Part shown: piece after piece, positions 26,257-27,080 of the stretch | Layout: each line of letters begins with the position of its first letter | Numbering within the stretch: the stretch's first letter is position 1 | Assembly: GCA_949935685.1 (NCBI GenBank) | Contig: CATLGN010000001.1 | Span: forward strand, 1 to 27,166 | Reading direction: 5' to 3' | Origin: an uncultured Lachnospiraceae bacterium | GTDB lineage: Bacteria > Bacillota > Clostridia > Lachnospirales > Lachnospiraceae | DNA: 27,166 nt | Program-made: the position numbers and the translations under genes | Notes under the pieces: model-generated | Told to the model about the DNA's origin: nothing | What the model saw: only the letters and a program-made list of their open reading frames with translations | Databases searched by the model: none

Positions 26257-26372
26257 TTCGTTGCACATACCGCAATAACCACGACAAACGCACGAATGAA
26301 CAAACTGTAAACGGTGCATAAACTGAGATGAACAGAAGCGGAAAAGCCCTGCGGTACAATATACTTCCGACC

Positions 26373-26400
26373 TTGACTTTTTCCCAATTCGCTGTATAAT
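26373..26400 (+). promoter_or_regulatory. promoter of the queT transcript
   Basis: TTGACT (26373-26378), 16 bp, TATAAT (26395-26400). Initiation near 26407 gives a leader of about 180 nt before the ATG at 26589, unusually long for this window. The stretch 26257-26372 between terminator and promoter shows nothing else. Confidence 0.8.
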
Positions 26401-26406
26401 AAAATT

Positions 26407-26588
26407 TCGGAAAAAGCCGCAAAAAACAAGGTTTTTCCCATATCATAACGTCAGTTCGAGACCTTCCTGACGTCAGTCACAGGCAAAGCCTGCAACTGGC
26501 GCGGCGCTCGTCGAGTTTTCGTTCATGCAGGGCATGACGAAAGTTCTCCTCGCTGCCCGCGCAAAACAAAACTAAAGGAGACAAAAAA
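26407..26588 (+). promoter_or_regulatory. structured 5' leader of queT, candidate riboswitch
   Basis: Four hairpins lie in series. A: GGAAAAA (26409-26415) with TTTTTCC (26432-26438). B: ACGTCAG (26448-26454) with CTGACGT (26467-26473). C: CAGGC AAA GCCTG (26480-26492) inside CAGT/ACTG (26474-26498). D: a 64-nt stem whose base is GCGCGG (26499-26504) with CCGCGC (26557-26562) and whose tip is TTTCG-T-TCATGC, loop AGG, GCATGACGAAA (26517-26542). A tail AAAACAAAACTAAAGGAG runs into the ribosome site. QueT genes are commonly under preQ1 riboswitches and the tail resembles the A-rich preQ1-I end, but the preQ1-I core is not recognisable. Class II, class III or another RNA remains possible. Confidence 0.5.
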
Positions 26589-27080
26589 ATGAATAACAAA
26601 AAAGTACTGTTCCTGACACAGGCAGCGATGGTTGCTGCCCTTTATGTCGTATTGACGCTGACAGCCAATCTGTTCGGTCTGGCGTCCGGGGCGATTCAGA
26701 TACGCCTGTCCGAGATGCTCGCCGTTCTTCCGGTATTTACGCCCGCTGCGGTTCCGGGACTGTTTATCGGCTGTTTTTTGAGCAATCTGTTGACCGGATG
26801 CTGCATTCTCGACATTGTTATGGGAAGTCTGGCAACTTTGCTCGGCGCGGCCGGCGCCTGGCTGCTTCGCCGCTGGAAATGGGCTTCGCCGGTTCCGACG
26901 ATCGTGGCCAACGCCGTGATTGTTCCCTGGGTGCTCACATCGCCGTATGGCTATGGGCTTACCGACGCCTGGTGGTATCTGGTGGCCACCGTGGGAGCGG
27001 GAGAGATTATTTCGTGCGGGATCCTGGGCACTGTGCTGCTTTTTGCCCTGGAGAAATACGGCCGGCGTATCTTTGTCTGA
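26589..27080 (+). CDS. queT: QueT-family transporter (probable queuosine precursor uptake)
   Basis: A 163-residue membrane protein of the QueT family (PF06177, formerly DUF988), taken to be the substrate-binding S component of an ECF-type transporter for a queuosine precursor. About five helices are visible. The family core is clear: QIRLSEMLAVLPVFTPAAVP, followed by GLFIGCFLSNLLTG, then LDIVMGSLATLLGA. The N-terminus KKVLFLTQAAMVAALYVVLT is also typical. AAAGGAG precedes the ATG. No ECF ATPase or T component is seen here, so it would share an energising module encoded elsewhere. Substrate is inferred from the family and the leader. Confidence 0.87.
   Translation: MNNKKVLFLTQAAMVAALYVVLTLTANLFGLASGAIQIRLSEMLAVLPVFTPAAVPGLFIGCFLSNLLTGCCILDIVMGSLATLLGAAGAWLLRRWKWASPVPTIVANAVIVPWVLTSPYGYGLTDAWWYLVATVGAGEIISCGILGTVLLFALEKYGRRIFV

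Follow-up and report, generated by a model that had tools for sequence, protein, structure and literature searches.

A probable translational preQ1 class I riboswitch of queT, split by a dispersed structured repeat, in a gut Lachnospiraceae bacterium

In preQ1-II riboswitches, the loop that leads to the 3′ strand of the pseudoknot has a stem-loop embedded within it. Three-stemmed pseudoknots (PMC11262651) are likewise described with an extra stem-loop ahead of the 3′ pseudoknot strand. Class I riboswitches of type I (Rfam family RF00522) are represented by an example from Carnobacterium, in which a 12-nt UU...UC loop is combined with an A-rich L3 and a CUA tail at the Shine-Dalgarno (SD) sequence, and queT is among the targets listed there for this type (PMC8752633). 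Type I is recognized by three marks, a UU that tops the 5′ strand of P1, a UC that leads into its 3′ strand, and a C in the tail; in the class I mechanism, preQ1 allows the tail to pair with the P1 loop, and the first bases of the SD sequence are tied up (PMC11625349). The linker of the type III preQ1-I riboswitch of Escherichia coli is 8 nt (PMC10622847). A dispersed repeat within a riboswitch leader has been described for the pneumococcal trp operon, where a BOX element lies between two T-box riboswitches and the authors think that the leader still works (PMC3049150). The queT leader described here resembles the Carnobacterium riboswitch in its loop, L3, and tail, but 89 nt of structured sequence separate P1 from L3. 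It has in common with the three-stemmed pseudoknots an extra stem-loop before the 3′ pseudoknot strand; no sequence relation to these or to preQ1-II was found, however, and extra stems are sporadic among the leaders considered here. With BOX it has in common a dispersed repeat that is transcribed inside a riboswitch leader, with the difference that BOX sits between two aptamers and the present repeat inside one. The literature searched, which did not extend to the McCown 2014 survey, yielded no preQ1-I riboswitch split by a long insert, and the leader looks like a known riboswitch class in a new, interrupted form.

The window, i.e., the whole 27,166-nt stretch of DNA analyzed, belongs to genome G000 (69% complete), and its last gene is queT (26589-27080, forward strand, as are all features below unless stated), which encodes a 163-aa protein assigned by family to the preQ1/queuosine-precursor transporter subunits (Pfam QueT PF06177, 150.3 bits). 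The initial annotation had described a near-consensus promoter followed by four successive hairpins, and both were recovered. The promoter-like site TTGACT-16-TATAAT (26373-26400) agrees with the consensus at 11 of 12 positions and has similar boxes aligned with it before the leaders of two relatives, G006 and G007. The sequence from 26407 to 26600 folds at -61.7 kcal/mol, compared with -43.5 ± 4.1 kcal/mol for shuffled sequences (z = -4.47; 0 of 200 as good), into four hairpins in series at about 26409-26439 (H1), 26448-26473 (P1), 26474-26498 (H3), and 26499-26562 (H4). The tail that precedes queT reads AAAACUAAAGGAG and is joined to the SD sequence AAAGGAG (26574-26580), as in the published type I model (PMC11625349). 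H1, a predicted 5′ hairpin at the transcript start, is identical at 29 of 39 positions in G006 and again at 29 of 39 in G007; at its position 3′ of the promoter, hairpins with other sequences are seen by eye in several further relatives. Control of queT by a terminator was considered and rejected, as H4 is followed by A and not U; the sole terminator-like call in the leader, a weak one at 26497-26513, would break up H4. In the queT leader of locus L013, a 5′ hairpin directly upstream of the aptamer, AAAAGUCGGAAUCGC...GCGUUUCCGACUUUUU (about 1882-1925), looks like an intrinsic terminator.

It had been stated that no preQ1-I loop could be found in a paired context. The loop GUUCGAGACCUUCC (26454-26467) is nevertheless closed by the 7-bp hairpin ACGUCAG/CUGACGU at 26448-26473, which, with its 12-nt loop UUCGAGACCUUC, constitutes a type I P1 hairpin. 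The 3′ partner of this loop, AAAACAAAACUAAAGGAG (26563-26580), lies 89 nt beyond the hairpin rather than directly behind it, and begins with the A-rich L3 and the start of the 3′ strand of P2, AAAACAAAACU (26563-26573). All three type I features are present, namely the UU and UC of the loop (26448-26473: ...CAG-UU...UC-CUG...) and the C of the tail, as is the succession of A-rich L3, CUA, and SD sequence at 26563-26580. As to the remaining trait, a short linker between P1 and L3, the halves in this leader are in order but 89 nt apart; they are contiguous in G007 and in most of the leaders listed. A covariance model, R3, was built from compact queT leaders of relatives (30 of 34 distinct compact sequences, with L068, L086, L088, and L104 left out). 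Applied to the 27-kb window at E ≤ 10, it returned two matches, which are the two halves of the queT leader (26449-26473, 30.9 bits, E = 1.4e-6; 26551-26580, 25.0 bits, E = 4.2e-5). The earlier remark that the tail resembles a preQ1-I 3′ end is borne out, as is the broader proposal of a preQ1-type regulatory leader. On nine further loci, R3 gave the same two-part match in seven insert-bearing ones, one whole match in L005, which has a short insert (31.8 bits), and one in the G007 leader (L034; 68.7 bits).

Covariation among relatives, which the initial annotation had proposed to look for, is evident both in P1 and in the hairpins of the insert, the latter being treated below. Within the 30 compact leaders, five of the six P1 pairs show changes on both sides, 99.4% of P1 cells are paired (67.3% in shuffles), and the covariation score is 0.685 (0.147 when shuffled). 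When 75 distinct leaders are taken together, inserted ones included and only pattern matches with GG soon after AAACTA kept, their 23 distinct arm pairs reach 97% pairing, the comparison value being 66%. Rfam, on the other hand, gave no family at gathering score in the window, and the proposed scan with the three preQ1 models came back empty: no preQ1 family of class I, II, or III matches 26300-26650 even at E ≤ 10. RF00522 did not reach its gathering score in any of 20 loci searched whole, compact ones included; the compact leader of Acetobacterium (L019) spans the whole model at 26.0 bits (E = 0.0012), below a gathering score of 39 that is a detection threshold rather than a trait. A high-scoring match to a known model had been put forward as the mark of a known riboswitch, and since RF00522 misses the leader, this mark alone would have left the matter open.

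The initial annotation had offered a class II or class III element, a variant, or a new RNA class as possibilities. The leader does contain several hairpins, and classes II and III are known to act on queT (PMC11625349), but neither class matches 26300-26650 at E ≤ 10, the class I halves are identified by R3, and the loop, the tail, the compact relatives, and G007 in particular all point to class I, type I. A class II or III riboswitch or an unrelated new RNA is consequently an exceedingly improbable reading of this leader. The suggestion of a variant was correct as far as it went, the variation being an 89-nt insert from a dispersed repeat family. Judged on these motifs and models, membership of the leader in preQ1 class I, type I, is well supported. 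The insert holds no second aptamer discernible by eye, and R3 finds just the two halves. Leaders of queT in Enterococcus may resemble preQ1 class II; for one of them (L036), no Rfam family was found at gathering level.

A search with QueT gave matches in nine of the ten genomes of the window's genus and provided 33 loci in all, some being the same places. The compact leaders among them carry, immediately 5′ of queT, a motif of some 43 nt in which a hairpin of 6-7 bp with the loop UUCG..ACC.UC passes straight into a stretch like that at 26563-26580. The closest comparison is provided by G007, whose QueT is 83% identical to that of the window and whose aptamer halves are contiguous: the two flanking segments are identical to those of the window (26/26 and 18/18), and exactly 26474-26562 is missing. 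G006 shares the identical 18 nt at 26563-26580 and also carries the insert, which is identical to that of the window at 84 of 89 positions. Elsewhere these two genomes are far more diverged, with 356 of 489 positions identical in queT, 28 of 78 at its fourfold sites, and 18 of 95 in the stretch above the promoter; the contrast between insert and fourfold sites gives a Fisher p of 1.4e-16 when sites are treated as independent. The five differences between the two inserts are in loops or weaken pairs, so no compensation is visible from that pair alone, and the conservation of the insert could have a cause other than function, such as recent transfer.

The insert (26474-26562) consists of two hairpins. 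The first, H3 (26474-26498), has the form CAGU CA CAGGC AAA GCCUG CA ACUG, and both-sided changes occur at eight of its nine helix pairs in 13 copies of the repeat described below; the second, H4 (26499-26562), supported by folding, covariation, and homologues elsewhere, contains an internal loop with the strands CUCGUCGA and UUCUCCUCGCU. H3 and H4 abut P1, each other, and L3 with zero unpaired bases between, and the 89-nt linker as a whole folds at z = -4.75. A weak match to the repeat model R2 (see below) lies on the reverse strand at 26448-26498, across P1 and H3 (23.7 bits, E = 0.0043), and perhaps arises from a ACGUCAGU/CAGU palindrome common to the two.

Members of the same repeat family were found in other genomes by means of two covariance models. 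R1, made from the inserts of the window and G006, matched in 5 of 295 genomes, comprising the two queT leaders, G069 (one place), G145 (12), and G130 (one). R2 matched in 39 of 194 genomes around G069 and in 16 of 116 around G145, these two sets overlapping; many of its matches are single and weak (E of 1e-4 to 0.01), and some are therefore probably due to chance. The richest genomes are G528 (22 matches), G034 (16 and 20 in the two sets), G145 (15), and G582 (8). Within the window's own genus, G008 has nine matches, G005 and G003 one each, and G009 three weak ones, while G000 and G006 have the queT copy only, plus doubtful further matches. Copies are adjacent, i.e., in tandem, in G145, G582, and G008. 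In an alignment of 13 copies, which was fitted to the model and includes many close kin from G145, both-sided changes affect 21 of 34 pairs, compared with 9.4 ± 1.8 in shuffles and 2-5 in slid controls. In G069 the copy likewise interrupts the P1/L3 junction of a preQ1-I leader before queT, and so does an element in G589; these two genomes share a genus that is not the window's, and the insert thus occupies one junction in four species. Relative to the window, G069 shows both-sided changes at five of nine H3 pairs and at one H4 pair, the lower part of its H4 being partly unpaired; its leader has another P1 loop, yet the aptamer halves are recognizable and P1 is intact. The assignment of the insert to a dispersed repeat family of Lachnospiraceae, with covariation and in places tandem copies, is well supported. 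The family covaries strongly and was not recognized in the literature searched; in the loci searched against Rfam, it had no match at gathering level.

The copies elsewhere share the conserved internal loop of H4 and are often followed, in queT orientation, by AAA as in L3 (28 of 40 copies; the R2 collection holds 45 matches, the element tree 43 after removal of two weak reverse-strand ones, including that at 26448-26498, and the count of 40 also leaves out three inner copies of tandem arrays). In the queT leaders, the A-run after the element is L3 itself; in G145, it is often part of a structure, terminator-like by eye, in which the other strand of the hairpin has a T-run. Tandem and single copies in G145 (L126, L128-L137) stand beside such terminator-like hairpins, with truncated copies adjoining, and their orientation to neighboring genes is mostly opposite to that in queT. 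Cells of the A.C type outnumber those of the G.U type in queT orientation (93 vs 71 in 43 copies), and there is a mild lean toward the repeat's own RNA being on the reverse strand.

The repeat is likely to be mobile, to judge from its pattern of occurrence. Of the 22 places in G528, 16 were fetched, and 14 of these hold one 133-nt unit, AATCAAAG...GGGAATAAA, in unrelated flanks (13 with 0-1 mismatch and one of 132 nt; L180 and L182 are without a whole unit); such near-identity in unrelated flanks is the pattern that recent spread leaves. The 3′ half of this unit (L167-L181) is akin to the queT insert, and some of the units (L167, L170) end right at an SD-like sequence. Near-identical copies also occur in two genera (L127:1501-1581 in G130 and L142:1501-1581 in G548), directly before AAAUCAGAAAGGAG; a small gene that begins there (MANRKRTNPVQF...) is mobilization-gene-like by eye; in L127, a relaxase-like ORF is seen by eye downstream of that gene. 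A Y1 transposase of the IS200/IS605 kind as general mobilizer is not supported: Y1_Tnp was found in two of eight genomes tested (six in G034 and a fragment in G589), with none in the copy-rich G145, G528, and G582. No MITE-type target-site duplication was seen by eye in the 12-base flanks of the G528 units, and a scan of IMG/VR with the G145 core pattern gave no matches.

Like the present repeat, the CGTC-tagged REPs (PMC3733652) are dispersed palindromes with CGTC before a stem that opens with A-T pairs; the REPs have no transposase partner. The likeness is to the core of H4, and size and arrangement are different: their stems are of 8-9 bp with loops of 4-5 nt and their clusters are rare (Table 1 of that source), whereas the present repeat has two hairpins, about 80-90 nt, longer stems, and head-to-tail arrays (G145, G582, G008). 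That text makes no mention of Clostridia or Firmicutes. Kinship with Clostridiales-1 RNA (RF01699) was also considered; a match of 24.1 bits (E = 0.0025) on the reverse strand of a tandem array (L131:1320-1640 in G145) is half the gathering score of 48, and the copy in L128 gives none at E ≤ 1, the signal being weak and inconsistent between copies.

The P1/L3 junction has received other sequences as well. Pattern searches of 397 family genomes from 334 genera revealed hairpin inserts of other sequence there in at least 18, or at least 20 when G000 and G069 are added; the patterns are blind to some loop sequences and gaps, missing the window itself, so that these counts are minima. Fifteen of the 18 come from a search with 24 matches (15 hairpin inserts, eight compact leaders that have another AAACTA further on, and one chance match, G399), and G249, G083, and G390 from one with eight (these three, G309, which is in both, three compact leaders, and the ambiguous G296). 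A gap of 8-38 between the halves was found in 235 of the 397 genomes, nearly all of them compact among the matches listed. R2 had no match in 21 loci with other junction hairpins, and these inserts thus cannot be recognized as belonging to the repeat family. Among 77 genomes of the G069 genus, 12 have short hairpins at the junction, and some of these hairpins appear by eye to be mutual compensatory variants. Over 22 distinct linkers, with those of the window and G006 included, all folding z scores are negative (mean -2.6; combined Fisher p of 3e-17, assuming independence), although several are unremarkable singly (p of 0.28 and 0.32 for two, and 0.12 for L059). The association with queT is complete in the insert-bearing leaders (23 of 23, and likewise G069 and G589) and is found in at least 46 of 52 compact ones; L017, one of the remaining six, had been retrieved as a QueT relative. 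Compact preQ1-I-like motifs with the P1 arm CUGUC and tails ACUA(G/U)GGA, and with no QueT ORF directly behind, were observed in L067, L080, L083, L087, and L104 and are possibly transcriptional versions before other genes.

How the repeat came to be in four leaders can be approached through two trees. In the element tree, rooted at midpoint, the four queT-leader copies form one clade with a bootstrap support of 85, which we regard as moderate. In the QueT tree, the insert carriers do not stand apart from compact relatives: G007, which is compact, lies nearer to G000 than G006 does (G000, G007, and G006 together having a support of 99), and G069 and G589 are among five compact species of their genus. 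Together these trees leave three scenarios, i.e., either a single old insertion that was cleanly lost several times, or repeated entry of the same subfamily into the same spot, or exchange of leaders between lineages. A conjecture that goes further, and that we consider rather unlikely, is that the family prefers the A-rich L3 of preQ1-I as a target and moves scarlessly at the P1/L3 junction without harm to the pseudoknot, some copies being kept as a second domain to give a composite switch.

Taken as a whole, the leader is very probably a translational class I, type I, preQ1 riboswitch of queT, split at the P1/L3 junction by an 89-nt mobile-like structured repeat that leaves the parts of the pseudoknot intact. 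By analogy with the class I mechanism, plentiful preQ1 would bring about pairing between the loop of 26448-26473 and the tail near 26572-26580; an H-type pseudoknot formed around the ligand would occupy part of the SD sequence, and with the SD sequence partly tied up, less transporter would be made. The window leader is thus predicted to bind preQ1, two molecules being expected for type I, and queT to be repressed by it. As the insert enters exactly where the A-rich L3 begins at the foot of P1, the binding pocket and P2 need not be disturbed. Closed helices flush with P1, each other, and L3 keep the parts of the pseudoknot in order, and L3 may start next to P1. At least five A residues are found in L3 in 13 of 21 other hairpin-bearing leaders, whereas L3 here is as long as in compact ones (AAAACA before AAACUA); since it has gained no bases, a stack of P1, H3, and H4 would be required, so that L3 still starts near P1, and we infer such a three-helix stack. 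In pseudoknot-free folding, the SD sequence of the window is mostly paired with other partners (0.48-0.91 per base), which makes sequestration possible without ligand.

The same unextended L3 could be taken to mean that the riboswitch is broken, a parasitic repeat having parted its halves to leave queT constitutive or low, given that longer L3 in other leaders looks as if extra reach were needed and that the element comes from a multi-copy family. In each of the four insert-bearing species, however, including G069 with its other loop, the halves can be recognized and P1 is intact, which is unlike a dead switch, and we consider loss of function improbable. The split riboswitch would then still be functional, as its preserved parts suggest.

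The insert might alternatively have been domesticated as a second regulatory domain, making a two-input switch that acts by pairing with the SD sequence or by binding a protein or ligand. This idea draws on the identity of the insert between the window and G006 (84/89, against 28/78 at fourfold sites) and on the both-sided changes of G069 at five of nine H3 pairs and one H4 pair. In the SD form of the idea, a C-rich strand of H4, e.g., UCUCCU (26545-26550), would pair with AGGAGA (26576-26581); the forced fold is 3.5 kcal/mol above the best one in the window and 0.4 kcal/mol above it in G006, but the unforced ensemble gives this pairing at 0.2% and about 7%, respectively, so that such an anti-SD switch is possible and not favored. 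Moreover, the insert is absent from G007, a close relative, as it is from nearly all of the 235 of 397 family genomes with a gap of 8-38 among the matches listed, and the conserved internal loop also occurs in copies elsewhere, which means that its conservation is nothing peculiar to queT. A second input of either kind seems doubtful, though well short of implausible.

These observations suggest that an aptamer built on an H-type pseudoknot need not be the single compact unit it is taken for: folded domains can interrupt it at one junction, and their repeated occurrence there with unrelated sequences would mark where preQ1-I tolerates insertions. Split halves also explain why annotation by covariance models overlooks such riboswitches. 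The leader makes a case for measuring the effect that a dispersed repeat inside an aptamer has on a ligand-controlled gene, and, if the repeat has indeed been kept as a working part, the smallest natural aptamer would become a composite, two-domain switch.
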